Origin: Arachidicoccus terrestris
GTDB taxonomy: Bacteria > Bacteroidota > Bacteroidia > Chitinophagales > Chitinophagaceae
Assembly (NCBI RefSeq): GCF_020042345.1
Contig: NZ_CP083387.1
Span: 992,001-1,056,000 of the forward strand
Length of the DNA: 64,000 bases
Direction of reading: 5' to 3'
A program made the translations under genes and the position numbers. How positions within the stretch are numbered: the stretch's first letter is position 1; each line of letters opens with the position of its first letter. The notes beneath the pieces are model-generated. The model was given only the letters and a program-made list of their open reading frames with translations, was not told the origin of the DNA and made no database searches. Positions 11,605 to 54,834 of this stretch are shown piece by piece.

Positions 11605-17636
<6,032 letters not shown>

Positions 17637-17666
17637 GCTTCTAATAAATAATTTTTCTTAATTATT

Positions 17667-18872: not shown

Positions 18873-18907
18873 TAAACTATAGTGTGAATACTGATGCAGC
18901 CTGCTGT

Positions 18908-22000: not shown

Positions 22001-22007
22001 GCACTGC

Positions 22008-24266: not shown

Positions 24267-24275
24267 TACAATAAA

Positions 24276-25874: not shown

Positions 25875-25905
25875 ATTTCGGTTATCCGTGCATATGTTTT
25901 ACCCG

Positions 25906-26988: not shown

Positions 26989-26992
26989 TTGT

Positions 26993-30640: not shown

Positions 30641-30696
30641 TGCTTCTGATGTTTAATGCTGGCTTTGCCGGCCAGGCTTCATGGATAAAGATGTAT

Positions 30697-31887: not shown

Positions 31888-31942
31888 TTCTTATTATTTT
31901 ATTCGTGAAATAATGGACTTATGAACGTTATGTAAAACAAAT

Positions 31943-32674: not shown

Positions 32675-32698
32675 CTCTTTTTAACTTTTTTCGATTGT

Positions 32699-35578: not shown

Positions 35579-35597
35579 AACATCGGATAATTAGGGT

Positions 35598-38500: not shown

Positions 38501-38624
38501 AAACGGACGTCTGACTTGCGCTGTTAGGGGTATGCTGGCGGGATTGCGCCTTTAGCCCGGCAGTCGTCACCAGAACAAAGGCAGTAAGTACACTTAACGG
38601 CCGATATAGCTTCTTTATATTCAT
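35598..38624 (-). CDS. GH2 family glycosidase (beta-galactosidase-like, long form)
   Basis: 1008 residues with a signal peptide (LSVLTAFVLVTTAGLKAQ). The sugar-binding domain has AVPSNWELQGFGSYNYG; the barrel has NSVRMSHYPPDDHFLDACDS, acid/base Glu445 in MWDNGNEGGFN and nucleophile Glu502 in FPTEFLHGLYDGG. After the barrel comes an Ig domain and a Bgal_small-like region (TRMGAGPYRVWKNRMEGVYL). GH2 members of this shape in pectin loci include beta-galactosidases and enzymes for other beta-linked sugars. Its neighbours are an SGNH acetylesterase upstream and GH78 downstream, so it probably works on deacetylated side chains. The substrate is uncertain. Confidence 0.88.
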   Translation of the reverse strand: MNIKKLYRPLSVLTAFVLVTTAGLKAQSRQHTPNSASQTSVLMLSGTGSDHTVPWDFYCTAGQNSGKWTKIAVPSNWELQGFGSYNYGLDKDSLRINEKGIYRHEFKVPSSWKGKVVRIVFDGVMTDADVKINGQSAGPVHQGAFYTFRYDISRLLRYGKANKLEVTVAKNSANPSVNKAERKGDFWIFGGIFRPVYLEALPPTFINRVSVDAKGNGDFNALVHIDLPGKNIADQASGLQLRGQLLDSKGHQIGSQLSGAISRRDNRPQDVIAQPAGQNLKVFEIKGHYGNEIQPWTPETPHLYTLRVQALINGQVVHEVEKKIGFRTVEVRPRDGIYVNGIKIKFKGVNHHSFWPSTGRTTSKALSIGDVLMLKDMNMNSVRMSHYPPDDHFLDACDSLGLFVLDELTGWHHNYDTEVGSKLVGEMIVKDENHPSIIMWDNGNEGGFNFDLDHLFADYDLQKRPLIHPWAIFGHMDTQHYINYDYGNGTHLHGHEITFPTEFLHGLYDGGLGAGLGDYWRAMWTNPLSAGGFLWVFADEAVVRTDKGGLLDADGDHGPDGIVGPYHEKEGSYYAIKEVWSPVFIEHREITPAFDGRFRIENRYDYTNLKQLTYQWALMSGGAPSIRDKAAGFNQLSADYSATVSRAKVLDSGLVNAQALPDVAPHKWGHLQLDLPADFEQADYLRLTIRDSHSNIVLIKTYPIHTPGWKSTAVLKELKLAEVSPTEPAGDWKIDQAADRFVIQGPAGKASRKAFSYQFNRQTGLLEKVLIAGREIPFNNGPVLCEGESKLKNFTLENKKDSIVLQAGFEKQSDLQRLTWVIYPDGVLKMDIGYFPHQYDYDYLGVSFDFPENLVTGVTRMGAGPYRVWKNRMEGVYLGRWENAYNNTITGENNPKMVYPEFKGYFSNLYWMQLQTRTLPITVLCGSEDVFLRLYTPESPKKPYNTAPKFPAGNISFMHGIDPIGTKSQVPENMGPSGRKNMYYDYGKAKDYAKPLTLYFIFGAPTNS

Positions 38625-38666
38625 GTAATTTCTATTTTCTATGTTCTTTTTCGCATGGTCCTGTGC

Positions 38667-40166
38667 TTACTTCAGCACTACGCCGGCATAAGGGCTGTCG
38701 GTCCTGAACGGCACAGCCGGCAGCCCGGCCTTATTAAAAAAATCAGGTTGCGCTGTTTCTGTCCAGGCAAATCTTGCCGCTGCGGGATGTAGTACTTCCT
38801 TACTGGTCAATTCAATATGGTCACCTGTAATGACCGCCCTGGCAGGAAAAAATTGTCCATCCCGTCCCGCCAGCTCAAAATAATTCAGCGGGCCGCCGTC
38901 TTTAGCGACCAGGCCTCCACCCGTATGCGTAAAATAAAGCGTCATTTTATTGCCATCGACCGCATGACGCCGATAGACAGGACCGCTGTATTCCACAGGT
39001 TTTTTATAGGTCTTAGCCAGCGCAATGGCAGCCAGGCGCTCACCCACCGCCCATTTGCCCGGTGGATGTATGTTCTTAAGGTTGTCCGGCAAATCTGTCG
39101 TGACTGCCATACCGGTTTGTGGGATCTGTAAACATAATGCCTGCGCCTCCCAGAATTTAGGCAAGGTATACTGCGTTAAAGGATAATCACCTTTATTACT
39201 GCCATAATAAAAAGGCGCAATCTGCACATAATAAAACGGCAATTGCTGATCCCCCCACTCTGTGCGCCACTGACGGATCAGGGCCTGCATTTTAAAAGCG
39301 TACTGCAGGCTATCGTTCATAAAACAATTGGTCTCTCCCTGATACCATAAAAATCCCCGGATCGTAAAAGGCGCCAATGTTTGCACCAAGGTAGGATAAA
39401 ATTTGCCTGGCCGGCTGTAATCAAAGTAAAGCTGATCGCTGGCAGGATCAATAGCTGTAATCTGCCCTGCTAACCAGGGCTCTATGGCACTGCCGGGAAT
39501 CGCGTTAGCGATCATGCCAATGGGTACATGCAGTTCCTTATAGAGTTTGCGGGCAAAGAAATAAGCGGCGGCTGAAAATGAGCGAAGCGCAGAATCTTCT
39601 GCCACCGACCACCCTTCATGCGCCGGGTGCCGTTTTGCCATCGCCTTTCTGAGTCCCAGGAAGATCCGGATCTGATCATTATGCGCATACTGAAGCTCGT
39701 CTACCGGTGAATGCGAAAAGCCTTCAGGGGGCGCTACTTTAGTCACCTTACTGTTTTTGCGCATGGTATATTCCATATTGGATTGCCCGGAACAGAGCCA
39801 GACTTCACCGGTCAGAATGCCATGCAATACAATCCTGTTGCTCCCTTCAATGATCATGTCAGCCGGGCGGGCGGAGGCAGCCATCGGCTTCAGCGTCACC
39901 ATCCAGTTGCCTGATCCGTCTGCCATGGCACGCACCTGTTGGCCCCGGAAACGCACGGTTATTTTTTCCAATGGTGCTGCCTGCCCCCAGATAGCGACAG
40001 GCTTATTTCTTTGCAGTACCATATTATGACCAATCACCTGGGGTAAGCTAACAGCTGCATGAGCGGCACCGGCCAGGCTCATACACAACAAGGCCAGCGC
40101 ACCGCAAACGCCATTGCGCACGTAACTTATATGCTGTAGGATCGCTTTATTTTTTATCTGTATCAT
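38667..40166 (-). CDS. SGNH-type sialate/pectin O-acetylesterase (SASA family)
   Basis: 499 residues with a signal peptide (LALLCMSLAGAAHAAV). An N-terminal beta-domain (VIGHNMVLQRNKPVAIWGQA) precedes the SASA catalytic domain: nucleophile Ser129 in CSGQSNMEYTM, the block FLWYQGETNCF, and the C-terminal Asp/His pair in DLPDNLKNIHPPGK. The family is named for sialate acetylesterases, but in plant-glycan loci such enzymes remove acetyl groups from pectin or hemicellulose. Its ATG shares the final A of the upstream gene's TAA stop, so translation is probably coupled. Deacetylation would expose side chains to the neighbouring GH2. Confidence 0.88.
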   Translation of the reverse strand: MIQIKNKAILQHISYVRNGVCGALALLCMSLAGAAHAAVSLPQVIGHNMVLQRNKPVAIWGQAAPLEKITVRFRGQQVRAMADGSGNWMVTLKPMAASARPADMIIEGSNRIVLHGILTGEVWLCSGQSNMEYTMRKNSKVTKVAPPEGFSHSPVDELQYAHNDQIRIFLGLRKAMAKRHPAHEGWSVAEDSALRSFSAAAYFFARKLYKELHVPIGMIANAIPGSAIEPWLAGQITAIDPASDQLYFDYSRPGKFYPTLVQTLAPFTIRGFLWYQGETNCFMNDSLQYAFKMQALIRQWRTEWGDQQLPFYYVQIAPFYYGSNKGDYPLTQYTLPKFWEAQALCLQIPQTGMAVTTDLPDNLKNIHPPGKWAVGERLAAIALAKTYKKPVEYSGPVYRRHAVDGNKMTLYFTHTGGGLVAKDGGPLNYFELAGRDGQFFPARAVITGDHIELTSKEVLHPAAARFAWTETAQPDFFNKAGLPAVPFRTDSPYAGVVLK

Positions 40167-42013
40167 TATTGAGCCTCCGAGGTCTTGAGCGATGTGATAT
40201 AATAAGCAGCTTCCTTGTCTATCTTGCCCGCATCCGGCAAGTCATCCTCAGGATCAGTCGGTGTATCCGCATTAGGAAATCTTCTGACATCTCCTGTCCT
40301 GAAGCAGATCCGGCTGATTTCATGTACGGGGGCAAAGAACAGGTTCCGCATTTTATCCTCTCCATTGATGTTCACTGTATAGAAACGGCTAGCGGTATTG
40401 AGTGAAACCCTGATATGATATACTTTACCGGCATCATAATGCATGATCTCTTTATTGCGGTAGCCTGCTTTTGTATAAAAAGAGCCCAGGCTATCCAGAC
40501 TCAGCCGAACGGCGGCAGCACCTACGTTGTTCTGAAACTCAATATCCAGATGGCCATGATCATTTTGACCGGCAATAAGTGTGAACTCCGCTACAAGCTG
40601 CCTGGAAGCGGGAATCACCCTGGTCGCTTTGGCATAGTCAAAATGGTCCGCATCTTTCAACGCCAGCGCTTTGTTGCCATCTTTCATCTTCACGATCCTG
40701 ACAGGTGCCATGAGCGGACTAAAATAATTCCATTGTTTAAGCTCCTTGCCATCGGGCATGTCGTTAAACACTTCATTGGCCTGGCCCGCAGGCTGATCTG
40801 TAACGGGCACGGGAATATCAGCGACCCACATATCTTCTTTATTCATGCTGTAGGTCACCCAGAGATCTCCCCCGGGCACACGGCCATTCCCTTCTACAAT
40901 TCCTCTGGTATATTGCGGCCCATAGGACTTATAGGCTCCGCCATAGCGCATGGACGTAATCTCCCCGTTCACCAGCATTAAATTGGTATAATTGAGCCCG
41001 TCCTCACTGGTAGAGATCGCCAGCGGCCACCGGAATTCCGAAGGATTATATACCGTCGCGTATTTACCGTCACTGGTGCGCTGGCCCCAGATCTTCGCGT
41101 TCGCATTCACAAAGCCGGGCGCACGTACCGCATTTTCAGGCCAGCTGTGGCCACCATCCTTACTGATAGCCGTCAGGGCATATTTCCAGAGCCCCACTAC
41201 TCTTCCGTCGGGAAGATGGTAAAAACTGAAGGCTTTATAATTCTTTTTTAAAGGGATTAGAGGATCTTTCCGATCTGTTTCTTCCTCCCATTGCATCATC
41301 ATCAGCGGATCTTTCATGAGTTCTTCACAACCCGCTACAAACCCTTTGTCTTTACTTTCCTTATAAAAAGGATAAGACGTATTTTCAGCGGTCCATCCCG
41401 GGTTATAATGAATAAAATAAATGGGGCCCCAGCTGCCATCTTTGTATACCTCCCGGACCACGCGGCCAATACCTTTTCCGTCATTCGGATCATCATGGGC
41501 ATGCAGCACGATGCCGTAGAAACCGAGCACAAAAAGACGCCCTGATTTCGTCACGTAAAAACCCATGCGCTGATGCATCACTGCATCCAGATTTTTAGCC
41601 TCCCCTTCAACACCCGGTTTGGTGGTTCCATCCGGGATCCGGTAAATCGGAAATACAACTTTGGGTTGTGTCCAGTCCTTGCCATCCTTTGATGTCAACA
41701 ACAGTGTCTGGCCGGGAGGGACGCTTTCTCCCACTTCATCGCTCAGGTACTCAACATAAAACTGGTTATTCCAATAGGCCATCATCGGCTGATGATTGTA
41801 AGTCCAGCCATATCCCTCGGCCATTTCGGGATGTTGCCTGTTGGCCCGGAAGATCTGTTGATTATGTACGCCGATCGCCATAGGCAGGCGGCCATCATGA
41901 TAATCTACATTTACCTGCCTTTTACCTGTGTAATGGACGGTATCCTGCGCCTTTAATTGTAGCGTAAGGACACCGGCGAAAATAGAACCTGCAATTATTA
42001 TACTTCTTATCAT
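40166..42013 (-). CDS. Secreted beta-propeller with C-terminal sandwich, GH145/PL27-like
   Basis: 615 residues with a signal peptide ending LQLKAQD. The first ~410 residues form a propeller with Asp-box-like repeats (TSKDGKDWTQP, ISKDGGHSWPEN, TSEDGLNYTNL). Strong blocks are GVHNQQIFRANRQHPEMAEG, GWTYNHQPMMAYWNNQFYV and ATVYNPSEFRWPLAISTS. These resemble the superfamily that includes GH145 and PL27, which act on alpha-L-rhamnosyl-glucuronate in arabinogalactans and use an active-site His; His residues in GVHNQQ and YNHQP are candidates. The last ~170 residues look like a lectin-type sandwich (HGHLDIEFQNNVGAAAVRLSL). Family placement is from memory. A role in opening a rhamnose-uronate bond is plausible. 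Confidence 0.55.
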   Translation of the reverse strand: MIRSIIIAGSIFAGVLTLQLKAQDTVHYTGKRQVNVDYHDGRLPMAIGVHNQQIFRANRQHPEMAEGYGWTYNHQPMMAYWNNQFYVEYLSDEVGESVPPGQTLLLTSKDGKDWTQPKVVFPIYRIPDGTTKPGVEGEAKNLDAVMHQRMGFYVTKSGRLFVLGFYGIVLHAHDDPNDGKGIGRVVREVYKDGSWGPIYFIHYNPGWTAENTSYPFYKESKDKGFVAGCEELMKDPLMMMQWEEETDRKDPLIPLKKNYKAFSFYHLPDGRVVGLWKYALTAISKDGGHSWPENAVRAPGFVNANAKIWGQRTSDGKYATVYNPSEFRWPLAISTSEDGLNYTNLMLVNGEITSMRYGGAYKSYGPQYTRGIVEGNGRVPGGDLWVTYSMNKEDMWVADIPVPVTDQPAGQANEVFNDMPDGKELKQWNYFSPLMAPVRIVKMKDGNKALALKDADHFDYAKATRVIPASRQLVAEFTLIAGQNDHGHLDIEFQNNVGAAAVRLSLDSLGSFYTKAGYRNKEIMHYDAGKVYHIRVSLNTASRFYTVNINGEDKMRNLFFAPVHEISRICFRTGDVRRFPNADTPTDPEDDLPDAGKIDKEAAYYITSLKTSEAQ

Positions 42014-42054
42014 TGTATGAACCCGTATTTATGGATAGCCGTAGCGGCCTGTCT

Positions 42055-43083
42055 TTAGTGATTTGTTTTGGCCTGAGTACTTTGCTTTAACGATTGTAAA
42101 AACTTTCTGGTAACCGGTACAATCGTACCGTGTTTATGCCCCCCGGGAATACTTATCCGGGACGAAACGTCTTCAAAGTGGATGAAATCCTTTGTCCGGG
42201 CTGCCCCGAATTTTCCTTTCCGGTACCAGTCATAATAAATCAGATACTTCCCATGTGTTTTTAAGACAGAAGGGCCCTCGCTAAACAATGGTGTAAAAGC
42301 GGGAGACGGATTTTTAAAGGGGCCTAGCGCCGAAGGTCCGAACGCGACTTTGATATCCCGCTCAGGCCGGGTATTATCTTTAAACACCAATACATAATCA
42401 TCACTGGCTCTTTCAACCAATGTTGCATCGATACTGCTATAACCCGGATCATAATATAGTTTAGGCGTACTGAACTGTTTAAAATCTTTTGTAACAGTAT
42501 AGTATAACCTGTGATTGTTGTCTTCGTCTTCCTGCCCTTTGGCGAATTTATAAGGAATCGTAGAGGCCCATACGATCAGAAAATCTCCTTTGTCTTTTCT
42601 GTAAAAGAGCTCCGGCGCCCACACGTTTACGGTAGCCGGTTCGGCGGCCATGATGGGTACGACTTTTTCCGGGGACCAGTGTATTAAGTCTTTGGAACTG
42701 GCATAGCCAAACCCTTCATTGCCCTTCCAGGCCAGTGTCCACACCAGGTGAAATACGCCATCCGGCCCCTCAACCATGGAAGGGTCACGCATAATTTTAT
42801 CCTCACCCGCTGTGGGCGGCAGGAAAATACCCGGGAGACTGTCCCAGTGGTAGCCGTCCATGCTATAAAGGAGCCTCAGTCCTTCATTAGCGGGTTCATG
42901 AAAGGAGGTATACAAAAAGGCTTTTCGCTGACAACCGGTCCCGATGGCCATTAATAATGTTGCCCCGAGTATGGCAGACAGCCACCGGCCTTTGCCGGCC
43001 TTACGGCGCTCCATGAATGGTAACAGCCCCGACAGGCGATTGGAAGTATAACCGGAAACGGATGTTTTGTTTAGTCGCTGCAT
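42055..43083 (-). CDS. GH43-type glycosidase, likely lipoprotein
   Basis: 342 residues. A hydrophobic stretch AILGATLLMAIGTGC points to a lipid-anchored or exported protein (Cys51). The five-bladed propeller keeps the complete GH43 acidic triad: Asp100 in KIMRDPSMVEGPDG, Asp219 in YSSIDATLVE and Glu269 in LFSEGPSVLK. NVWAPELFY between them is another family block. Likely products are alpha-L-arabinofuranose or beta-D-galactose; the subfamily cannot be fixed by eye. It is the first gene of the sixteen-gene operon, about 200 bp downstream of a TAnnTTTG element. An ATG at 43014 would give a shorter signal region. Confidence 0.85.
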   Translation of the reverse strand: MQRLNKTSVSGYTSNRLSGLLPFMERRKAGKGRWLSAILGATLLMAIGTGCQRKAFLYTSFHEPANEGLRLLYSMDGYHWDSLPGIFLPPTAGEDKIMRDPSMVEGPDGVFHLVWTLAWKGNEGFGYASSKDLIHWSPEKVVPIMAAEPATVNVWAPELFYRKDKGDFLIVWASTIPYKFAKGQEDEDNNHRLYYTVTKDFKQFSTPKLYYDPGYSSIDATLVERASDDYVLVFKDNTRPERDIKVAFGPSALGPFKNPSPAFTPLFSEGPSVLKTHGKYLIYYDWYRKGKFGAARTKDFIHFEDVSSRISIPGGHKHGTIVPVTRKFLQSLKQSTQAKTNH

Positions 43084-43226: not shown

Positions 43227-43232
43227 CGCATA

Positions 43233-43265: not shown

Positions 43266-43286
43266 AACGTTTGTCACTTTATATAT

Positions 43287-43326
43287 CAAAAGTACATTTA
43301 TATATAAATAATATCTTCTAAAATAT
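43287..43326 (-). promoter_or_regulatory. Promoter element A of the sixteen-gene operon
   Basis: On the minus strand TACTTTTG (43287-43294) matches the Bacteroidota -7 box TAnnTTTG. Just upstream lies the 14-base palindrome ATTTATATATAAAT (43296-43309). The 40-bp block is 34/40 identical to the one at 53048-53087, and both sit a little over 200 bp before a first gene. The -33 region reads GAAG instead of TTTG, so an activator may be needed. The rest of the 43084-43419 gap holds the two leader hairpins and the terminator below; no gene is seen. Confidence 0.7.
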
Positions 43327-43354
43327 TATCATTAAATAATCATTTATTATCACA

Positions 43355-43397
43355 AAATGGGCTATCCGGCCACATTGTGCTGGTGGATAGCCCATTT
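43355..43397 (-). terminator. Intrinsic terminator after the GH140-type gene
   Basis: A 13-bp perfect inverted repeat (AAATGGGCTATCC at 43355-43367 and its complement at 43385-43397) with a 17-nt loop. On the minus strand it is followed by TTTTGTG. It separates the PL1/GH140 operon from the promoter of the next one. Confidence 0.75.
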
Positions 43398-43419
43398 ACT
43401 TAATTTGAGAATAGTGAAG

Positions 43420-44892
43420 TTACCCGGCGGACTGATCGATGATCAGCACCCAGTCATTTCCATGCGCTTTTTCACCCGGAGGGTGGGCACTGTATTTTTT
43501 GGCGGCACCGATTTCCTGCTGCCTGACAGTCTCCCCGTTTCTCGGATTAAACCAGCTCACCTGAATTTTCCCCTTCCCGGCATCAAACCCGCTTAGATCC
43601 ACCTGAAAGTCTCTGCCATTCGGTGTATAAAACAGGGCATATCCTTCTGCTTTGGTAGCGGCCACATAATCATAGCGTGTGCCCTGGTCCAGGACCATCG
43701 TCGTGTCGGGCACCCGGGTAAGATAGGATGACCTGTCAAGCATTAATTTTTTCAAATATATCAATTGACCTGCGGCCGTGTCCTGCAGTGCCGCTTCCCA
43801 GCCCTTGGTTACACCATAGGCGCCTGCGACACCTGTTGACGGGTCATAAAACTGCATAACGGCATTGGCACCATATGTAAACCCACAAGCCCCTGAAAAG
43901 ACGGACCAATAGGCATATCTTCTGATCGCCGCAGCATCCCATCTGGGTTGCAAAGAATCATGAAGGCCCTGCGGAATGCCTTCATAGGAAGGTTCCGCAT
44001 CCAGCGTAGGCTTTGCGGGTTTCTGCCGGTAATCGGCCTGAACATATTTGTAATTGTCTTCCCCATATTGTAAAGTGCCCGGCTCATTATCCTGGTCATA
44101 TCTGCGATGACCGGATTGGAAGCAATTAAAATCCAGCCAGGATGCATTATGAAACCAGGTGGATGACTGTGTCCTGCCTCTTGGATGAAAGCTCATCAAC
44201 TGCGCCGGATTCGCACCTTTAATCGTGGTGCCGATCGCCTGCCATATATCCATCGAATCGGTTCCGAGTACATCCCCTCCATTGAACCATACCACATTTT
44301 TTGCTCCGTGATATCTGCCTGCCAGAAAACGGGCATAGGCAGTCGCTTGCGGGATGCTGACCTTGCCGGATTTGACCACAGACCCCCACACCGGAACCAG
44401 GGCCACCAGCATATGAAGACGGTCAGCCCGAGCAACCAGAGAATCCAGCCCCTGCCAATAGTTCAGCGTATCAGTTCCGGGGCTGGTTATCGTATCCGGC
44501 CGGCTGAGATCCTTATCCAGTAAAGCTGATCTGCCATAAATATTTCTCTCACCCAGGTCATGGATCACCATCACCTGAATGACATTAAACCCTTTTTGCG
44601 CCCTGTCTTTCAGATAAGTTATCACCTGGTCCTGCCCCAATTTACTGAGCAGCAACCATCCCGTATCACCCAGCCAAAAAAACGGATGACCTTGCTGATC
44701 CACAAAATAGCGATGATTATCTGATACCCGGATAGGGAAGACGGGCCGTACAGACAGGTTACTTTGCGCCTGCTGTTTATTGCCCGCCGGCGAGTGGCAG
44801 GCACTCAATGAAACAGACAGCCCCAATACAAAAAGCCACGCTTTCTGTAGGCTCCGCCCCCCGAACATACATGCATTCTTTAATACATTCAT
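43420..44892 (-). CDS. GH140-type apiosidase (DUF4038 family) lipoprotein
   Basis: About 490 residues. A lipobox VSLSAC follows the signal sequence. The DUF4038 barrel begins HRYFVDQQGHPFFWLGDTGW and includes KGFNVIQVMVI, then VVWFNGGDVLG (Asp about 207) and TLDAEPSYEGIP (Glu about 300-304), the expected acid pair. A C-terminal small beta domain (PNGRDFQVDLSGFDAGKGKI) matches the collagen-bind-2-like module. The characterised GH140 enzyme BT1012 cuts beta-apiosyl bonds to release RG-II side chains, and apiose in pectin is confined to RG-II and apiogalacturonan, so this gene is a strong substrate clue. The frame opens at TTG 44913; ATG 44892 is preferred. Confidence 0.85.
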   Translation of the reverse strand: MNVLKNACMFGGRSLQKAWLFVLGLSVSLSACHSPAGNKQQAQSNLSVRPVFPIRVSDNHRYFVDQQGHPFFWLGDTGWLLLSKLGQDQVITYLKDRAQKGFNVIQVMVIHDLGERNIYGRSALLDKDLSRPDTITSPGTDTLNYWQGLDSLVARADRLHMLVALVPVWGSVVKSGKVSIPQATAYARFLAGRYHGAKNVVWFNGGDVLGTDSMDIWQAIGTTIKGANPAQLMSFHPRGRTQSSTWFHNASWLDFNCFQSGHRRYDQDNEPGTLQYGEDNYKYVQADYRQKPAKPTLDAEPSYEGIPQGLHDSLQPRWDAAAIRRYAYWSVFSGACGFTYGANAVMQFYDPSTGVAGAYGVTKGWEAALQDTAAGQLIYLKKLMLDRSSYLTRVPDTTMVLDQGTRYDYVAATKAEGYALFYTPNGRDFQVDLSGFDAGKGKIQVSWFNPRNGETVRQQEIGAAKKYSAHPPGEKAHGNDWVLIIDQSAG

Positions 44893-44957
44893 AATTGAAA
44901 GTTGTCTAGTCAATAAATTGAAATATTTTTAAATTACACGTTCCCATGCACCTCTGG

Positions 44958-47900
44958 TTATTGAGCTTTGAGCCAAAAAACGGTATCGTTGCCACTGGCC
45001 GTCAACTGTAGTGCGCCGGCTTCAGTGGCTTGTTTGTTATGACCGCTTTTTATCTTTCCCGTTGCCGGATCAATAGCTGTCAGCTGATAGCGTTTTTTCA
45101 GATCTTTGTCTAATAGAGCTGCCTGATGTCCCTTTTGAACATAGATTATATAATCGCCCTTATCGCTGCGTAAGCCGCAGGCGCCATCCGCCGCCTTGCC
45201 GGAAGCAGCGTTCAGACCTACCGGACGCATGTCCGCCGCGGCGGATAAAAACGAAGGTGATAACGCGGCAGGCAAATCCGGCAGCGAGCCGCCGGCCATA
45301 AAACTGGCCCAGCCCAGTCCGGCGGCATTATCAGCGGAATACATTACCGCCTTGTCCGGATACCTGTCCCGGTACTCCCTGACGGCGCGGTACACCTGTT
45401 CGAAACTTGTGTTTTTCGGTTTAAATAATCGGGCCTGTTGCCGGGGCGCCAGATTTTTTCCGCCTTTCGGTGCGTAAGCTGATCCGTCTTTCTGATAGTA
45501 CCAATACCGGATATCGATAACTTTAACAATAGGATTTAGTCTTGGATCGGCCAGTATGCTGTCCTGTACGTCTTTAGTGGTGCTCAGACCGATAAAGGGC
45601 GCATTTTTCCCTGTTCTGTTGTTTTTCTTTTCCCAGTCCCCGATCGTTTGCAACCAGAACCGGACAAAATGCGTCGGGCCGGTAAATTCTTCACAAATAA
45701 ACTGAATGACGTTATGGTTATCTTTGAAGTTGGCGAGGCACTGATCAATAAATGCCTGATGTAAACCTCTTCTTGCAGGATTGGTTTCATCATAAAACTG
45801 CTCTGCCATAAAAAGACGCTTATCCGCTGCATAGTGCACCGGTTCAGGAAAGCCGGTATGATTAATATTATTGACAGGGCGCCAGGGAAAATCCGCGTAA
45901 TGCGCGCCCGCTTCAATGATATTATGCTGAAAATAATTATGATGGATCAGTACCAGTCCTTTCTGGTCCGCCAGATCAGCAAACCGTTTTAGCCTTGACC
46001 AGTAAAAGGGATTATATTTGGTGAGGTCATACTTACTTAGACCATCCCAGGCCGTTCCCTTTCCGCTTCTGGCAAAAGGTAACTCATAAAAAGGCGGCCA
46101 GACATTTCCGTTTTGACGGCGGACTCTTTCATGGTCGTCTCTTCTGCGGTCATACCAGAGCCCGTAATTTTGTTCCATCACTCGTATATGTCTTCGCTGC
46201 ATCTGATCGGTAACCGTGTCCAGATTATCCGTCAGGCCGGTACCCGTTCTTCCCGGCACGAAACGCGTGATCGCCGGTTTGGCTTTCGCGACAAAATCCC
46301 GGGCGACGGTACCAAACCACCAGGGCGTCTGTTGCCGGCCGCCCGTCAACACCTGTCCGCCGCGTTCCAGCCAGCCGTTTTTAAGCACCATCGGCGTCAC
46401 GGCAGCGGCCTTTTTCACAGGTTCCAGCCCGATCTTATAAATGCTTGGCGCCCCCCCAGCCGCTACAGGCAAGGGATCGCGGCTGATCAGCGTATCGATC
46501 CAGTCTTTCATGGTCATGGCAGGCGTATAAGCCTCCGCTGTCAGGGCGGCCGCCGCCTCTTCGGTCGGGCTGCTGCTGGCTTCTCCTTCAAAAGGCATTA
46601 GGTCTGCCTGCTGCTGTACATCCCTGCCCAGTCTCTGGGCAAGCTGCGTATAATAAAAACTTCTGGGGGACATCCAGTTATTGGATTCTGCCCAATAGCC
46701 ATCGCCGCCAAATTGTGCCCAGGTGCCAAAAGCATAGTTCTGGGCGGTCGGCGGCCTGGCCACATTAACCCTGGAAGCATAACAATTCCAGAGCAACGAA
46801 TTGGCCGCATTCCAACCAGCACCTTGTTCATTCTGGCCCAGATTACGGAACTCCAGGGTCTGTCCATCCAGCCGTACCAGGTCAAACAGAACACCTGAAG
46901 CCCAGCTGTTCACCGAACCGCTGTAACTCAACGCCTCTTCTCCCTGGCACTGTACAAAAGCATTCGGGCCTGCGGCACAAAAGCCGACAGAGAAATCGTG
47001 ATATCCCTGTTCACTGTACAGTCGCTGAAAAAGATTCTGCTGGCCGGTCGTACTAAAGACATAGCGCCGTTGTCCGCCGATTTCAGAAACAGGATCTGTC
47101 GACTGGCAATCTTCCACCGTAAAACGCTGTGCCCCTTCCAGTAGGCTGACCGCTGAACCGGCAAAATATTGGAAATGAATACGCCGGATCCAGCCGTCAA
47201 TTGCATTATTCACGACGATGGCCATCCACCTGTGATCTTCATCTTTTTGACGACTATGATCATAATCGGACACCAGGTGCAGATTTTCAACCCCTACATG
47301 ACTGATCCTGCCCGGCCATGTGAACCTGGCGACCGTGGCAGTACCATAGCGTTTATCCAGTGCTGTGGTCAGTGGTGCATCCAGGGCGATACCGGAATCT
47401 GTAACCGCTGTCACCCGGCGGCTCCAGAAAATATCCTCCGCTCCCGGCTTCCAGCCGAGCGCAGAGACGTCGCCGCCAAATGTACGGGTGCCTAACTGAT
47501 CAATCCAGGCCTCAGTGCATGGCCGGTGAATAACGACCTGATCTCCCTGCTTAAAAGCAGCAGGATCGGTCAGTCTTAAAAACCGCGCGTTCACGGCAAC
47601 ATAATCCTGATCAATCGTCACGGGCGCCTGGTTGACGCTGTCTTTCTTACCTTCAATAAGAATCAGGGGCGACCGTCCAGTCCCATCTCCTGACAATACA
47701 GTTCCTTCTTTGCCAGGTCCGGCGCCCCGCAAAACAACACCTGAATGGCGGATATGCAGTGTACCGCTTATGTGATAGGTACCCGGGGCCAGTAAGACAA
47801 CACCTCTGAATCCCGAAGCCTGGACCGGCAATTTACCGACATAGTCAATAGCCGATTGCAGCGCTGTGGTGGCATCTCCGGTACGTAATGGCACTGTGAC

Positions 47901-48215
47901 TTTGACCGGAATATCATCCGGAATAGAAGAATCGGACGCCTGGTACCCGCAGTAGGAAAAATCAACAATGCGGTTACCGAGTGAATCCGGATGGTAAACG
48001 AATTTTCCTCCCTTTTGCCACTCCAGTGGCGCTATGGGTTTGTTTTCTTTTTTATTTTTCTGGCCATAGCTTACTGCTATTGTCATAAGGCAGGTTAATG
48101 AAAAAGCCAGGCTATATTTTGCAACCAGGCAGCAGTATACAGTTAAAGCAGGGAAGATATTTCCCTGCTTTAACGTATATACATTACGCATCTGATTGCG
48201 GCTAGTATGATTCAT
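44958..48215 (-). CDS. Beta-helix plus DUF6298-like barrel fusion, putative pectin-active enzyme
   Basis: 1085 residues, exported (LAFSLTCLMTIAVSYGQ). Residues about 100-560 form a pectate-lyase-3-like right-handed helix: ATTALQSAIDYVGKLPVQAS, GVVLLAPGTYHISGTLHI and EGAQRFTVEDCQSTDPVSE. From about residue 590 a second half has GWLERGGQVLTGGRQQTPWW, RHIRVMEQNYGLWYDRRRDD, VIQFICEEFTGPTHFV and MYSADNAAGLGWASFMAGG, consistent with a barrel hydrolase of the DUF6298 type. No function is established as far as I know. It lies between PL1 and GH140 genes, which points to RG-II or homogalacturonan. Glu in ICEEFTG may be catalytic. Confidence 0.65.
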   Translation of the reverse strand: MNHTSRNQMRNVYTLKQGNIFPALTVYCCLVAKYSLAFSLTCLMTIAVSYGQKNKKENKPIAPLEWQKGGKFVYHPDSLGNRIVDFSYCGYQASDSSIPDDIPVKVTVPLRTGDATTALQSAIDYVGKLPVQASGFRGVVLLAPGTYHISGTLHIRHSGVVLRGAGPGKEGTVLSGDGTGRSPLILIEGKKDSVNQAPVTIDQDYVAVNARFLRLTDPAAFKQGDQVVIHRPCTEAWIDQLGTRTFGGDVSALGWKPGAEDIFWSRRVTAVTDSGIALDAPLTTALDKRYGTATVARFTWPGRISHVGVENLHLVSDYDHSRQKDEDHRWMAIVVNNAIDGWIRRIHFQYFAGSAVSLLEGAQRFTVEDCQSTDPVSEIGGQRRYVFSTTGQQNLFQRLYSEQGYHDFSVGFCAAGPNAFVQCQGEEALSYSGSVNSWASGVLFDLVRLDGQTLEFRNLGQNEQGAGWNAANSLLWNCYASRVNVARPPTAQNYAFGTWAQFGGDGYWAESNNWMSPRSFYYTQLAQRLGRDVQQQADLMPFEGEASSSPTEEAAAALTAEAYTPAMTMKDWIDTLISRDPLPVAAGGAPSIYKIGLEPVKKAAAVTPMVLKNGWLERGGQVLTGGRQQTPWWFGTVARDFVAKAKPAITRFVPGRTGTGLTDNLDTVTDQMQRRHIRVMEQNYGLWYDRRRDDHERVRRQNGNVWPPFYELPFARSGKGTAWDGLSKYDLTKYNPFYWSRLKRFADLADQKGLVLIHHNYFQHNIIEAGAHYADFPWRPVNNINHTGFPEPVHYAADKRLFMAEQFYDETNPARRGLHQAFIDQCLANFKDNHNVIQFICEEFTGPTHFVRFWLQTIGDWEKKNNRTGKNAPFIGLSTTKDVQDSILADPRLNPIVKVIDIRYWYYQKDGSAYAPKGGKNLAPRQQARLFKPKNTSFEQVYRAVREYRDRYPDKAVMYSADNAAGLGWASFMAGGSLPDLPAALSPSFLSAAADMRPVGLNAASGKAADGACGLRSDKGDYIIYVQKGHQAALLDKDLKKRYQLTAIDPATGKIKSGHNKQATEAGALQLTASGNDTVFWLKAQ

Positions 48216-48270
48216 ACTCTAAAATTACAAATTGATGAATAAATCAGCGAATCAGGGTAATCATTGCTTT

Positions 48271-49950
48271 TTAAGGCCGGACACGTTTAATCGGCACCAG
48301 ACTGTTCAGATACACTTCAATGTTCGTGTAGCCACCGCCGTTTTTAGCGAGTTTACTGGCGTCTGAATGATCATTCGCATTCAGGCCATGTTTGGTCTCA
48401 TAAGCATCCGGGATACCATCCTGATCGGCGTCAGCATAAGGCGTACCGTTATACTCAGGATAACCGCCGACCTGACTGATGTCACTGATAATTCCTTTCT
48501 TATAGGAATCCTGGGGCATCCTGCGTTTGATGTACGGTGTCACTCCTGACTTTTCATCTTGTTCAACATAGACAATTTTGCCCGTTTTTACTTCTTTTAT
48601 CACACGGGTGTCTACCGGATCCCTTTTAGGTAAAAATGCGCCCACATTGTCCAATACGTAATTGTAAGCCTTTTTAGCACTGAGAATACTGACATTCCCC
48701 TTCAAGGCAAATGGCTGATCCACTTTAATCGCCTTGGTGAATTCACCGGCATCGGGCATATCCTCGATCTGTACACCGCCGTTCCAGTTATTTTTTGTTA
48801 CAGCCTTATCACCGTCCACATAATTGCCGTGCACATATGCCTTACCATACATTTTCCTTTTCTGTGCATCTCTTCCCGCTTCCGGTTTCAGGATACGATG
48901 ACTGATCGGCTCATCTTTAGGTGTAATGGGCCCTGGCTTATAATAGTTATTAATAAAATTATACTCGGATCTGTGATCTCCCCCATCTACACTACGGTTC
49001 CACCAGTTAAAGATCACATTATTGACAAAACCAAAGCTGCCATACATACCTACGGATGGATTACGGGCGACATTATTGGCCCATAAGTTTCTCATAAAAG
49101 TACTGTTTAGACCGCCCAGTGTACTACCGAAAGCATGATTATACGTATCCAGCCCTTCTGAGAAAATAGAGTTCTGTATCGTGACATTAACGGTCGGCAG
49201 TTTCAGGGCCTTGCCCTGGCGGTCATAAACATGGCGGTAAATGGACATATTCTCATCCAGGCCCCAGCTCGCTGAAACATGGTCGATCATAATATTACCT
49301 ACCGGATTACCACCCAGTCCGTCATCTCTGCGGCCCACATCCGTTGCCCCTCTTCTGAAACGCATAAAGCGGACGATTACATCATGGGTATCGATCCATA
49401 CGGACTCTCCGGCAATGCAGATGCCATCACCCGGAGCAGACTGACCTTCGATGGTCACATATGGCGCCCTGATGATCACCGGGCTCTTTAGATGGATGAT
49501 GCCAGCCACATTGAATACAATCGTTCTGGCACCGCCTTGCTCACAGGCCTCCCTAAAAGTACCGGGGCCGCTGTCGGCCAGGCTGGTTACGACAAAGACC
49601 TTACCTCCTCTTCCGCCAGGCGTGTAGGCCCCGCCACCCTGCGCTCCGGGAAAAGCAACAATACTGGCTTGCTTCAGATCCTCCGGTTTGGCTGCCCAGG
49701 GCACATAAGGTTTGCCTTCCCTGGCTTCTTTTTCAACAATTGGCAGCGCTTTGGCCCAGGCAGCGTCAGATAATTTCTTGGCCACAGCCAGCGCACTGTC
49801 CGATTTCGCCTGTACAGCCGGCGGGATTTTTGGATACTGCGCCTTAGCGACAGCTCCTAATAATAAAAATGAAGCCAACAACCCCATGCTTCTACAGGCA
49901 CGTCCTTTGTGCATATCTAAACGCGTTAATGTAACAGATAACTGATTCAT
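48271..49950 (-). CDS. PL1 family pectate lyase (1)
   Basis: 559 residues with a signal peptide (LLASFLLLGAVAKAQ). PL1 blocks: VAFPGAQGGGAYTPGGRGGKV, TSLADSGPGTFREAC, RTIVFNVAGIIHL, VTIEGQSAPGDGICIAG and NIMIDHVSASWGLDENM, typical of the beta-helix lyase with calcium-assisted beta-elimination on polygalacturonate. A C-terminal DADQDGIPDAYETKHGLN loop looks like a calcium-binding thrombospondin-3-type repeat. It is closely similar along its whole length to the lyase 211 bp upstream, so the pair arose by tandem duplication. It is 55 bp before the beta-helix/DUF6298 gene. Confidence 0.92.
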   Translation of the reverse strand: MNQLSVTLTRLDMHKGRACRSMGLLASFLLLGAVAKAQYPKIPPAVQAKSDSALAVAKKLSDAAWAKALPIVEKEAREGKPYVPWAAKPEDLKQASIVAFPGAQGGGAYTPGGRGGKVFVVTSLADSGPGTFREACEQGGARTIVFNVAGIIHLKSPVIIRAPYVTIEGQSAPGDGICIAGESVWIDTHDVIVRFMRFRRGATDVGRRDDGLGGNPVGNIMIDHVSASWGLDENMSIYRHVYDRQGKALKLPTVNVTIQNSIFSEGLDTYNHAFGSTLGGLNSTFMRNLWANNVARNPSVGMYGSFGFVNNVIFNWWNRSVDGGDHRSEYNFINNYYKPGPITPKDEPISHRILKPEAGRDAQKRKMYGKAYVHGNYVDGDKAVTKNNWNGGVQIEDMPDAGEFTKAIKVDQPFALKGNVSILSAKKAYNYVLDNVGAFLPKRDPVDTRVIKEVKTGKIVYVEQDEKSGVTPYIKRRMPQDSYKKGIISDISQVGGYPEYNGTPYADADQDGIPDAYETKHGLNANDHSDASKLAKNGGGYTNIEVYLNSLVPIKRVRP

Positions 49951-50056
49951 AATAGTAGTTCATGCAACCTGCCGGTGAACGGACAGGCATACTGATTTTT
50001 AATTGAGTAATAAAGTACCGGTGATCCCTCCATGATATAAACAATAACATGGAATG

Positions 50057-50094
50057 GATGTGTTCCTTTTGAGCGGACTCAAAAGAAACACATC
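50057..50094. repeat. 17-bp inverted repeat between the two PL1 genes
   Basis: Arms at 50057-50073 and 50078-50094 pair at 16 of 17 positions around the four-base loop CGGA. No U-tract follows on the minus strand, so it may be an RNA processing or stability stem that allows different expression of the two lyases rather than a terminator. Confidence 0.6.
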
Positions 50095-50161
50095 ATTTCT
50101 GGATTCCATAAAACCAATCTGACCTTGCGGTCCAACAACTAATCAAACAAAACAAAAAAAA

Positions 50162-51835
50162 CTATGATTTCTGATAGTCCGGACGCACCGTATTAATAGG
50201 CACCACACTATTCAGGAATACTTCAATATTGGTGTATCCGTGACCATTTTTTGCCTCTTTGGGCGCATCCGAAGCGTCATTCGGATTCAGGCCATTTTTA
50301 GTTTCATAGCTATCAGGCATACCGTCATGGTCGCTGTCTTTATACGGCGTTCCGTTATAGTCGGGATAGCCGCCTACTTGTTTAATTTCTGTAATGATAC
50401 CCAATTTATAAGAATCTTTGGGCAGCTTACGCACCTTGAACTGATAGTCATTATCGGTATTGATTTCTTTATAGGTAATCTTACCGGTGCGCACCTGTTC
50501 TACCACTCTTTTATCCACCGCATCTCTGACAGGCAGTGTGGCGCCGACATTATTCAATACATACTGCAAGGCCTGTTTTGCCGGCAAGATCGTTACAGGC
50601 GCATGCGGGAAAGGCTTATCCCACTTCATATAAGGGAAATATTTTTTAGCGCTGTCCAGACTCATCAGATCACCGTCAGTTCCTTCCATCTGAACACCCC
50701 CATCCCAGTTATCTTTTGTTACACGGTCATTGCCATACATGATATTGCCATGGACATAGGCTCTGCCAAATACCTTATAAGGTAATTTACTACGGCCTGA
50801 TTCTGGCTTAAGAATCCGGTGGCCGACAGGATCTTCTTTTTCTGTAACAGGACCGGGTTTATAATAGTTATTGATAATATTATAAAGGGAGGTATAGTCT
50901 CCACCATCTGTAGAACGATGATGCCAGTTAAATACGACGTTATTGACAAAATTGAATACCCCATTCCATCCGATGGATGGATTACGACCCGTATTATCCG
51001 CCCAAAGGTTCCGTGCCAGCATGCAGTTTTCCCCGCCCATGGTGGATCCAAATGCATGATTCCAATAATCCAGTGATTCTGCAGAAATACTGTTTTGAAC
51101 CGTCATATTCGCGGTACCGTGTTTTTCCTCTTTTGAACCGTCCCCCGGGTCAAACATATGTCTGTATATGGACATATTTTCATCCAGGCCCCAGCTGGCG
51201 GAAACATGATCAATCATAATATTACCAACCGGGTTTCCGCCCAGCGCGTCATCTCTGCGGCCTACCCATGTCTTTCCTCTCCTGAAACGCATATAGCGTA
51301 AAATCACATCGTGGGTATTGATCCAGAATGATTCACCGGCAATACATACACCGTCACCGGGTGCCGTCTGCCCTTCAATCGTTACATAAGGTGCACGGAG
51401 TATAATAGGGGTTTCCAGATGGATAATACCTGCTACATTAAACACAATTGTTCTGGCACCGCCTTTTTCACAGGCTTCCCGGAAAGTGCCCGGGCCATGA
51501 TCCGCCAGGCTGGTCACGACATATACTTTTCCGCCTCTGCCGCCTGCCGTATGGGCTCCTCCGCCCTCTGCACCGGGAAAGGCCAACAAATCTGACTGTG
51601 GCAGATCGGTCGGCCTTGCCGCCCAGGGAATATAGGGTCTACCTTCCCGGGCTTCTTTTTGTACGATTGGATAGGCAATTTGCCACATGGAATCTGAATG
51701 GGCCTTAAAACCATCAGTAAAAACTTTGATGGAGTCACGCATTTCAGAAGTGATTGTCGGATACTGTGCCTTTAGCATCTTGGAGCCGCCGACCATCAGC
51801 GTGCAAAAGAGCAAAGGCAAAGAATACTTTTTCAT
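50162..51835 (-). CDS. PL1 family pectate lyase (2)
   Basis: 557 residues with a signal peptide (LPLLFCTLMVGGSKMLKAQ). It shares nearly every motif with its neighbour: LLAFPGAEGGGAHTAGGRGGK, TFREACEKGGARTIVFNV, VTIEGQTAPGDGVCIAG, NIMIDHVSASWGLDENM, and the C-terminal DSDHDGMPDSYETKNGLN calcium-type loop. Differences cluster in the middle (CMLARNLWADNTGRNPS) and in the inserted FDPGDGSKEEKHG, which may alter substrate length or methylation preference. It should cut the unesterified galacturonan backbone outside the cell. It is the second gene after the DUF3826 gene, separated by 308 bp that hold a terminator and what look like gene remnants. Confidence 0.92.
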   Translation of the reverse strand: MKKYSLPLLFCTLMVGGSKMLKAQYPTITSEMRDSIKVFTDGFKAHSDSMWQIAYPIVQKEAREGRPYIPWAARPTDLPQSDLLAFPGAEGGGAHTAGGRGGKVYVVTSLADHGPGTFREACEKGGARTIVFNVAGIIHLETPIILRAPYVTIEGQTAPGDGVCIAGESFWINTHDVILRYMRFRRGKTWVGRRDDALGGNPVGNIMIDHVSASWGLDENMSIYRHMFDPGDGSKEEKHGTANMTVQNSISAESLDYWNHAFGSTMGGENCMLARNLWADNTGRNPSIGWNGVFNFVNNVVFNWHHRSTDGGDYTSLYNIINNYYKPGPVTEKEDPVGHRILKPESGRSKLPYKVFGRAYVHGNIMYGNDRVTKDNWDGGVQMEGTDGDLMSLDSAKKYFPYMKWDKPFPHAPVTILPAKQALQYVLNNVGATLPVRDAVDKRVVEQVRTGKITYKEINTDNDYQFKVRKLPKDSYKLGIITEIKQVGGYPDYNGTPYKDSDHDGMPDSYETKNGLNPNDASDAPKEAKNGHGYTNIEVFLNSVVPINTVRPDYQKS

Positions 51836-51844
51836 TAATTAATT

Positions 51845-52050
51845 TTAACTAATTTTGTTTTTAAATTTGTTACGCTTTTCAACTGGCACTACAGCGAATA
51901 CCAGGGACGATCTATCCCCGAACTTATCCAATTGCAGCAGGACAAAAGTTCTTTCATTCGATCCAGTTGGTAAAAATACAATAGGTCCTTAATCACTCCT
52001 CGACTATTGTATTTTTTGGCGGCACCTATTTACTAAGTACCTGGCTAAGA
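51845..52050 (-). pseudogene. Probable gene remnants, including the 3' end of a GH140-like gene
   Basis: The 308-bp gap 51836-52143 is not plain spacer. TGTATTTTTTGGCGGCACC at 52008-52026 is an exact 19-base copy of 43491-43509 inside the 3' end of the GH140-type gene. The match extends with about 80% identity over some 50 bp, giving IGAAKKY preceded by two stop codons and a one-base shift. Next to it, 51845-51988 is an open 47-codon frame without a start codon (GPIVFLPTGSNERTFVLLQL and onwards) that looks like a C-terminal piece of another protein. I read the stretch as the scar of a deletion or recombination event. Confidence 0.45.
51972..52016 (-). terminator. Intrinsic terminator downstream of DUF3826 (2)
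   Basis: AAAAATACAATAG at 51972-51984 pairs exactly with CTATTGTATTTTT at 52004-52016 (13 bp, 19-nt loop), with a U-run on the minus strand. Because the PL1 genes lie further downstream, it may terminate only part of the transcripts. Confidence 0.65.
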
Positions 52051-52143
52051 CGCTCAGTTGATCCTTCGCACTTTTAGTTTTCACCTGCAGATCAACAAGG
52101 AATCATATGGCTCGCAATCTATGTTTGAATTGATTAACCTAGT

Positions 52144-52821
52144 TTATTTTTTGGCGGACTCCCTTCGTTTCTTCCAGGCGATCTCCGCCTCTTTCATATC
52201 AATACCAGCTGATGACAGGTAGTTATTGATACGGCCTTTGTATTTACCAAACCACCAATGTTTTTCTTTGGAGCTCCCCCCGTCAATGGCATGCTCACGT
52301 GCTTCCACCAGCCAGGCCATGATCTGATCTTTTTGCTTTTGGGAAAGATCGGGTAGCATCTGCGTGTAAGCCCGATAGGTCACCTCCAAGGTATGATAGG
52401 TGAGTCCGTCTTTCACTTCATCTACCTGATCTTTATTCAATAATTCGTTCAGTCGGCCTACAAACGCCGGATGCAGACGGGCAACACTTTGTTCCGCTTC
52501 TGCCTTTACGGCCTTAACAGCGTCTTTTTTGGCTGTTTCGGAAAGCTGGCTGTCTTTTATTTTGCCTGTCTCACTGACCTGTATACTGTCAATCCTGTTA
52601 AGATCGAAGTATTGTTGTTCGATCACCCGGCTCACCTTTTGCACCTTTGCAGCGTCCTTTAAGTGAAGTGGCTCAACAATCTTTGCCACTCTCCCCTGAA
52701 TCACTTTCACATACGCAGGATCCTCCTGGGCTGTCGTATTGGTGAATTGAGCAGAAACGACCTGCAATGAACCGCCAGCCACCACGCTACATAAAAATAA
52801 TTTTGAAATAATGCTTCTCAT
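52144..52821 (-). CDS. DUF3826 family secreted protein (2)
   Basis: 225 residues with a signal peptide (FLCSVVAGGSLQVVSAQ). It is shorter and more diverged than the copy at 31943-32674 but keeps the family pattern: GRVAKIVEPLHLKDAAKVQK at the start, LLNKDQVDEVKDGLTYHTLE in the middle, LPDLSQKQKDQIMAWLVEAREHA near the end. Charged helices dominate; the tail is KKRRESAKK. It is the first gene of the PL1/GH140 unit, 220 bp downstream of promoter element B. The matching positions of two DUF3826 genes in two co-regulated units suggest that the family has a real role in pectin use, but none is known. Confidence 0.8.
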   Translation of the reverse strand: MRSIISKLFLCSVVAGGSLQVVSAQFTNTTAQEDPAYVKVIQGRVAKIVEPLHLKDAAKVQKVSRVIEQQYFDLNRIDSIQVSETGKIKDSQLSETAKKDAVKAVKAEAEQSVARLHPAFVGRLNELLNKDQVDEVKDGLTYHTLEVTYRAYTQMLPDLSQKQKDQIMAWLVEAREHAIDGGSSKEKHWWFGKYKGRINNYLSSAGIDMKEAEIAWKKRRESAKK

Positions 52822-52856
52822 CCTGATAATATTTTCTTTGCTTATTTAAACCCCGT

Positions 52857-52937
52857 TGTGGGATAACAAATGCTGATAAGTCGTTTGGAGCCCCCTTCCA
52901 CCCACTTAACATACATTTGTTATTTTTCAATCCCACA
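52857..52937 (-). promoter_or_regulatory. Bulged stem-loop in the DUF3826 leader
   Basis: TGTGGGATAACAAATG at 52857-52872 pairs with CATTTGTTA (52914-52922) plus TCCCACA (52931-52937); an 8-nt bulge interrupts the stem. The stem lies in the untranslated leader, ending 36 bp before the DUF3826 start codon. It could affect translation or transcript stability. Confidence 0.55.
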
Positions 52938-53047
52938 CACTCAAGGTAAAATGAATGGTTAATGATTAAGTGAATTTTTCCTGATGAATCTCCTGGATCC
53001 GGTCATGTAATGATAAACATTTAAATTGACGTTCAATGTTTATATGT

Positions 53048-53087
53048 CAAAATTACTTTTATATATAAATAAAACCTTCCAATATAT
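53048..53087 (-). promoter_or_regulatory. Promoter element B of the DUF3826-PL1-GH140 unit
   Basis: Minus-strand TAATTTTG (53048-53055) matches TAnnTTTG, with the palindrome TTTATATATAAA (53058-53069) just upstream. It is 34/40 identical to element A at 43287-43326. It lies in the 522-bp gap 52822-53343, which otherwise holds the leader stem, two hairpins downstream of susD and about 110 bp (53101-53216) in which I see nothing. Confidence 0.7.
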
Positions 53088-53216
53088 TTTCAAGAATTTA
53101 TACAAAATTGTCAAAACAAGGCCAAATCCTCCGTCTTACCAGTGGACAACACCGGCCGGTAAACGGAAAACTTAGACACCGGCAGCTCCAATTGGTTTAT
53201 TATCAGAACAATAGAA

Positions 53217-53237
53217 ACAGCCTAAAAAACAGGCTGT
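53217..53237 (-). repeat. Small hairpin downstream of the SusD gene
   Basis: ACAGCCT and AGGCTGT form a 7-bp stem around a 7-base A-rich loop. It follows the main SusD terminator and may back it up. Confidence 0.4.
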
Positions 53238-53276
53238 CTGCTATACAAAAACAATTGCTGAGCCCGGCCATAAAAC

Positions 53277-54813: not shown

Positions 54814-54834
54814 GATTTAAATTTTAGTGATGCA

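Follow-up and report, generated by a model that had tools for sequence, protein, structure and literature searches.

The 64,000-nt stretch of the Arachidicoccus terrestris genome analysed here (the window; NZ_CP083387.1, positions 992,001-1,056,000; coordinates are window positions unless prefixed) contains genes for a BT_1020-like propeller, an apiosidase and members of GH141, GH106, GH127, GH95, GH78 and GH2. Through the known links between family and substrate, these gene families point to a rhamnogalacturonan-II (RG-II) locus. Two runs of minus-strand open reading frames (ORFs), one beginning with a GH43 gene and the other with a DUF3826 gene, are each preceded by a 40-bp block, and the original prediction held that these blocks are copies of one activator-dependent promoter controlling more than twenty genes. 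Comparison with related genomes upheld a shared promoter that links the two operons and is probably activator-dependent, with conservation that is bounded between species and unlike that of a dispersed repeat; counting window ORFs of 150 aa or more and disregarding a nested one, the two runs hold 16 and 5 collinear ORFs, 21 altogether, which agrees with the predicted number of genes. As judged from the alignments, the regulon promoter has five sites, and each 40-bp block forms the downstream half of one of them. The features are listed in Table 1.

The two blocks (43287-43326 and 53048-53087) share 34 of their 40 bases, and in each the palindrome stands beside a minus-strand TAnnTTTG as predicted (TTTATATATAAA-NN-TAnnTTTG at 43287-43308 and 53048-53069, then A in each). 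The expected spacing of a little over 200 bp was also found, the block ends lying 204 and 227 bp ahead of the ATGs at 43083 and 52821, which begin the GH43 and the DUF3826 gene, respectively (Pfam). Neither block has TTTG at the -33 position, in agreement with the prediction; in the second block a TTG sits 24 bp ahead of the -7 box. With up to three mismatches, the 22-bp pattern was matched three times in the window, whereas 100 shuffles averaged 0.10 matches and never gave three. Reading the same palindrome on the plus strand accounts for the third match. When the 4.90-Mb genome was searched for the block, the exact 22-bp pattern occurred three times (both blocks and one place 0.56 Mb off), and the reversed pattern had zero occurrences there. 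Among six genomes of the genus, the pattern is present in four including our own, as a pair about 10 kb apart in two further species and singly in a third. The eight pattern-bearing sites align gap-free over 85 bp, and the conserved unit extends about 30 bp farther upstream than the 40-bp block, where tandem direct repeats are found.

To describe the unit, 16 sites were aligned, namely the GH43 promoters of five species, the DUF3826 promoters of five, the SusC promoters of four and two remote promoters of our own genome (G000, 4.90 Mb; G001 to G005 denote five further Arachidicoccus genomes). Eight of these sites were selected by containing the palindrome and eight were found otherwise. The unit of about 85 bp comprises a 17-bp sequence (TGnnAAT...AA) directly repeated at a distance of 21 bp, an AT-rich spacer and the -7 box TAnnTTTG; it lacks a -33 TTTG and mostly carries TATAAA after the box. 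The box is present in 16/16 sites, having served as the anchor and been sought within a range of 34 positions. Positions relative to the start assume that it occupies -12 to -5, a register stated for Flavobacterium psychrophilum in a passage of PMC9723704; on this assumption the repeats lie at about -71 to -55 (DR1) and -50 to -34 (DR2). The distance from DR2 to TAnnTTTG is 21 bp in all five sites of our own genome, and, the -7 box aside, conservation is strongest at the G of each TG, at 2.04 bits in both cases. TATAAA follows shortly after the box in 13 of the 16 sites, is replaced by TATGAA in the G003 DUF3826 promoter and is absent from both G005 sites.

The spacing of the repeats was assessed by self-similarity at 26 offsets, of which 21 was the highest in all three subsets, with 10-11 bp second. 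None of 5000 column shuffles was as high for the 16 sites or for the eight sites outside the training set of model R1 (see below), and for the five own sites the p-value was 0.0012 (5000 shuffles); these p-values are uncorrected for the offsets tried. When one promoter class at a time was left out of training, the five own sites scored 12.0-28.2 and outscored every one of 20,000 sequences made by shuffling their bases, most narrowly at the isomerase site (12.0 versus 11.8). Similarly, a half-site matrix (consensus ATGAAAATATTTTACAA), made from 28 half-sites with the true sites included, gave the five sites 21.9-37.7 in a scan of 150 kb of our own DNA, compared with 13.9 for the best non-overlapping hit and 11.4 for the reversed-sequence control. 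The repeat pair just upstream of the block is thus likely to be the control site, as far as sequence comparison can tell.

Two sequence models were used to find further members. R1 was a sequence-only model built from the eight palindrome-bearing sites and run over 89 genomes; R3 was built from 14 of the 16 aligned sites, the two G005 sites being omitted, and run on the six genus genomes. In our own genome, where 150 of 3939 first-look candidates were scored and the five sites belong to the training set, R3 returned five sites at E≤1.2e-10 and the next at 1.08. Since R3 values cover training sites, weight is given to the R1 values of sites on which that model was not trained. These were 2.1e-6 (G000), 5.9e-8 (G001), 1.7e-5 (G002) and 4.4e-10 (G003) for the SusC promoters, 7.1e-8 for the G003 DUF3826 promoter, 0.0042 for an own site, and 0.002 and 0.06 for two weak G005 sites. 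All five strong own copies adjoin pectin genes, each in promoter orientation. Beyond the two blocks, the third promoter (G000:C1:1070808-1070884, outside the window) precedes genes for SusC, SusD and a relative of a pectate lyase of solved structure (E 1.8e-43), and the fourth precedes an AP_endonuc_2 (isomerase-like) gene that is divergent from a PL22 oligogalacturonate lyase gene. The fifth (G000:C1:4058085), also remote, precedes the gene for a paralogue 63% identical to the pectate-lyase-like protein and is near GH95, which lies past an opposite-strand asparaginase ORF and need not belong to the same unit. The original prediction had found no copy upstream of SusC or GH106. This holds for the window SusC gene (54835-58161) and for GH106 (6612-10214), upstream of which R1 gave no match at E≤8 and the half-site matrix none above a score of 9, but a diverged copy does precede the SusC gene outside the window.

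In the relatives, R3 found three sites each in G001, G002 and G003 and two weak ones in G005 (E 1.7e-4 and 0.046), so that orthologous sites are present in four of five relatives, weakly in one; the fifth, G004, had no convincing R3 site (best E 0.2) and also lacks the BT_1020 marker protein of the locus. Sequence identity between species was compared without gaps in 20-bp steps, over four species for GH43 and DUF3826 and three for SusC (G003 omitted), insertions depressing the outer values. It was 58-100% between -80 and 0, 67-84% over the next 20 bp, 17-45% upstream of -80, and mostly 23-45% in the leader steps (exceptions: GH43 +20 to +40, 60%; SusC +40 to +60, 58%; and one SusC step, 48%). 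Some weaker R3 matches in the genus were not counted: G003:C1:282254 (E 0.016) and G002:C27:477745 (0.07), both inside ORFs; G002:C17:55740 (0.08), which sits before a sulfatase-like ORF; and G005:C19:62765 (0.039) along with weaker ones.

Outside the genus, the best R1 match among 83 genomes, with at most 50 first-look candidates scored in each, had an E of 6.4e-4. Five such matches were inspected and are treated as chance: three lie inside ORFs (L033, L034, L036), one between ORFs (L039) and one (L037) directly before an ORF that is AraC-like by eye. Among the best 80 of 563 loci with a BT_1020 relative, R1 matches at E<0.01 were confined to two from Arachidicoccus, L064 and L079. A GH43 relative is present in 75 of these 80, with TAnnTTTG near its estimated start in 11 of the 75 and such repeats, by eye, only in L064 and L079. 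As far as these comparisons reach, the promoters are conserved between Arachidicoccus species and mark a putative pectin regulon.

The best candidate regulator is the AraC-type protein encoded at 10620-11495, which matches HTH_18 (9e-18), HTH_AraC (9.8e-10), cupin and AraC_binding in Pfam. Its identity is 95% in G001, 92% in G002 and 66% in G003, the other species with strong sites, and its last 91 residues are identical across G000, G001 and G002. The best AraC relatives in G004 and G005 reach 36% and 33%, and G004 has no orthologue. As in class-II AraC activation, the regulator is encoded with the locus, the half-sites are about 21 bp apart and the proximal one abuts -33/-35, where the consensus box is missing. 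We consider it fairly probable that this protein binds the 21-bp repeats as a class-II activator and co-induces the five-site pectin regulon. In the proposed mechanism, the primary sigma factor would read the -7 box and initiate poorly unaided; the AraC-type protein would sense a sugar released from RG-II and occupy both repeats as a tandem dimer whose proximal subunit would reach to about -34; and the bound protein would compensate for the missing -33 contact, turning the operons on together.

Several observations weigh against this assignment. G005 keeps two weak sites, and no AraC orthologue was found in it (best 33%); by gene order, the AraC gene is expected at about the point where the G005 contig breaks off, so that absence is not implied. 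Neither R1 nor the half-site matrix found a site at the AraC gene itself, at the GH106 and GH127 genes or at the window SusC gene, and control by the regulator is thus visible neither at its own gene nor across the entire locus. Our own genome has three further AraC-type genes passing E 1e-40. The half-sites are variable, and one of them, in the G003 SusC promoter, needs a 1-base gap. In addition, the missing -33 TTTG says little in favour of an activator, since no -33 motif was identifiable in Flavobacterium johnsoniae according to a passage of PMC7366714. An OmpR-type response regulator and a histidine kinase are encoded divergently beside the outer SusC gene (L018 15235-17249; G000:C1:1071235-1073249), which also speaks against the AraC-type protein; the pair is present in G001 as well (by similar protein starts), and G002 has other genes there.

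The same direct-repeat operator might instead be bound by another AraC-type activator, either a hybrid two-component system (HTCS) protein or an AraC paralogue encoded elsewhere. In Bacteroides, according to Ravcheev et al. 2013 (PMC3878776), HTCS proteins have direct-repeat motifs whose distance averages 21 bp and which are ascribed to AraC-type DNA-binding domains. The closest relative of the AraC protein's DNA-binding part in the PDB set is a hybrid two-component protein, and the weak G005 sites persist without a visible AraC orthologue. However, HTCS proteins are about 1200 aa or more, and apart from ORFs of SusC type or GH families, none that large was found in the window or 20 kb around it, as judged outside the window by size, with Pfam run on part of the flanking ORFs. 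The largest ORFs in the 20 kb on one side encode 1111 aa (SusC), 993 aa and 848 aa, and on the other 818 aa. The AraC-type protein is moreover encoded inside the locus and conserved together with it, and a different activator seems rather unlikely.

The original prediction regarded the palindrome as a candidate operator, which would be that of a dimeric regulator, and this part was not supported. The two blocks, the isomerase site and five sites of relatives all have a perfect TTTATATATAAA, but these eight sites were chosen by it, and it is intact at its place in none of the eight others. There, three SusC promoters have TTTATATATGAA, two G003 promoters have TTCATATATAAA, and no palindrome is recognisable in either G005 site or in the own pectate-lyase-like site, whereas the direct repeats (weak in G005) and the -7 box are retained. 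Because the repeats and box persist where the palindrome is lost, an operator role is disfavoured and the element is better read as an AT-rich promoter spacer. In favour of an operator, and at odds with the direct-repeat reading, the own pectate-lyase-like site carries a displaced TTTATATATAAA beginning 10 bp past its -7 box; all the same, we regard a palindromic operator as very unlikely. In this case, a perfect palindrome common to two promoters need not be an operator.

A shifted promoter, in which the TTTG of the block would be the -33 element and the true -7 box would lie about 19 bp downstream, has TTGATTTG 19 bp past TTTG in the GH43 leaders of G000, G001 and G002 to recommend it. By eye, however, the DUF3826 and SusC promoters have no such match at 19 bp, and TAnnTTTG, the anchor sought over 34 positions, stands at every one of the 16 sites; this arrangement is disfavoured as highly improbable. 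Although two near-identical copies within one locus might suggest a dispersed or mobile repeat with no regulatory role, this is rejected as extremely unlikely, given only five strong copies in 4.9 Mb rather than many unrelated ones, each promoter-oriented before a pectin gene, and orthologous positions that are conserved between flanks near background in the ungapped comparison.

Downstream of the DUF3826 promoter, the otherwise poorly alignable leaders of G000, G001 and G002 share an element of the form GGGAUUnAAAAAUAACAAAUGU..GUUAAGU..GGGGGCUCC..CAUUUGUUAUCCC. A model of it (R2) gave E 1.2e-20 to 5.7e-23 in these three, its training sequences, and its next matches in 89 genomes were one at 0.005, at another position in G001, and others no better than 0.034. 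Three stretches, when excised, gave folds superior to those of most shuffles (z -4.1, -3.5 and -2.1), the fold of the whole 231-nt leader is unremarkable (z -1.3), and one of 27 pairs changed on both sides. No gathering-level Rfam match was found in the window, and a search of eight loci at E≤5 gave one match only, to an unrelated small-RNA model outside the element. A leader peptide was rejected: the 24-codon frame is open in G000, runs into DUF3826 in G001, and in G002 meets a stop at codon 5 and an indel (frames judged by eye). A structure predicted from three sequences is a lead, not a result. Two-layer control of RG-II genes, in which one AraC-type protein would act at five promoters and a so far undescribed structured RNA in the DUF3826 leader (long stem around GUUAAGU...GGGGGCUCC) after initiation, is offered as a tentative possibility. 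If it is true, the leader RNA could act by binding a metabolite or a protein, for instance.

Turning to the remaining features, the unit behind the second promoter has five ORFs with gaps of 308, 211, 55 and 44 bp, in which a scan limited to hairpin loops of 3-8 found no minus-strand terminator-like site. The first of these gaps (51836-52143, minus strand, 308 bp after the DUF3826 stop) is nearly identical at both ends in three species and matches no known feature. The hairpin at 43355-43397 is likely the terminator of the upstream operon and was unlisted in the scan because its loop is too long. An inverted repeat, ACATTAAAACGTAC.., lies at 43194-43228 in the GH43 leader and is absent from the leaders of four aligned relatives. 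Between a GH2 gene and the second promoter lies a SusC/SusD pair (53344-58161, minus strand) that lacks a copy of the shared promoter. Since a large ORF stands immediately before the corresponding promoter in G001 and G002, the pair looks inserted or moved.

Table 1. Features of the window, with strand and supporting basis.
Feature	Position	Strand	Details	Basis
AraC-type regulator (cupin + HTH_18), candidate activator	10620..11495	+		Pfam, conservation
Unit behind promoter 1, 16 collinear ORFs	11605..43083	-	Gaps ≤56 bp; GH43, BT_1020-like, SASA esterase, GH2, GH78, DUF3826, BNR, esterase-like, then GH141, oxidoreductase, SSF symporter, rhamnosidase-like, GH78, GH130-like, two GH2	
ATATATAAA	43278..43286	-	Directly downstream of GH43 -7 box; largely conserved	Alignment
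GH43 -7 box TACTTTTG	43287..43294	-	Start inferred near 43282	
GH43 palindrome TTTATATATAAA	43297..43308	-	About -26..-15; read as AT-rich spacer	
GH43 DR2 (ATGATAATATTTTAGAA)	43316..43332	-	About -50..-34; 21 bp from DR1	16-site alignment, half-site scan
GH43 DR1 (GTGATAATAAATGATTA)	43337..43353	-	About -71..-55	16-site alignment, half-site scan
Hairpin between apiosidase gene and promoter 1	43355..43397	-	13-bp stem, then TTTT	Sequence, fold
Unit behind promoter 2	43420..52821	-	DUF3826, two ORFs with no Pfam match, DUF6298 protein, apiosidase-like	
Conserved leader element, possible structured RNA	52854..52937	-	84 nt; three Arachidicoccus species	
ACATATAAA	53039..53047	-	Directly downstream of DUF3826 -7 box	Alignment
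DUF3826 -7 box TAATTTTG	53048..53055	-	Start inferred near 53043	
DUF3826 palindrome TTTATATATAAA	53058..53069	-	Read as AT-rich promoter spacer	
DUF3826 DR2 (TTGAAAATATATTGGAA)	53077..53093	-		16-site alignment, half-site scan
DUF3826 DR1 (TTGACAATTTTGTATAA)	53098..53114	-		16-site alignment, half-site scan
Terminator-like hairpin between upstream SusD gene and promoter 2	53215..53239	-		Terminator scan, fold

The arrangement resembles known systems in part. Class-II activation at Escherichia coli araI1-I2 uses 17-bp half-sites in a 21-bp repeat, with the proximal half-site ending at about -34/-35; half-site length, repeat and position are the same or nearly so here, whereas the Arachidicoccus promoters have a Bacteroidota sigma factor and a TAnnTTTG -7 box, and nothing points to a distant looping operator. 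The BT_1020-like, GH43, apiosidase, GH141, GH106, GH127 and GH95 families also belong to the RG-II locus of Bacteroides thetaiotaomicron. The regulator associated with that locus, BT0977-1030, is the HTCS BT0981 according to passages of PMC3243724, unlike the AraC-type protein found here, and for this rhamnogalacturonan-induced locus Ravcheev et al. 2013 (PMC3878776) state that no motif was predictable for BT0981. The same source describes 16-, 12- or 14-bp HTCS sites with 5-, 9- or 6-bp spacers, which precede several operons of one polysaccharide locus as well as distant operons, rhamnogalacturonan regulons included. The 21-bp direct repeats before several locus operons and distant ones are alike in our case, but the candidate is a one-component cupin-AraC protein, with no HTCS-size ORF within the window or 20 kb. 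The -7 box itself is the TAnnTTTG consensus given for Bacteroidota primary-sigma promoters in passages of PMC9723704 and PMC7366714, from which our sites differ in the upstream repeats, the TATAAA after the box and the missing -33 TTTG (a motif not identifiable in F. johnsoniae either, in the latter's account).

No published motif for an RG-II locus was found in the open-licence literature, nor any paper there on TTTATATATAAA or on the binding motifs of Chitinophaga AraC proteins of polysaccharide-utilization loci. The five-site regulon is new, and its proposed kind, AraC-type activation through direct repeats, is already known. RG-II is an exceptionally complex plant pectin, and how its many breakdown genes are coordinated is poorly known. 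For this question, the comparison of relatives yields an explicit motif, a candidate regulator and five testable promoters, two of which lie far from the locus.

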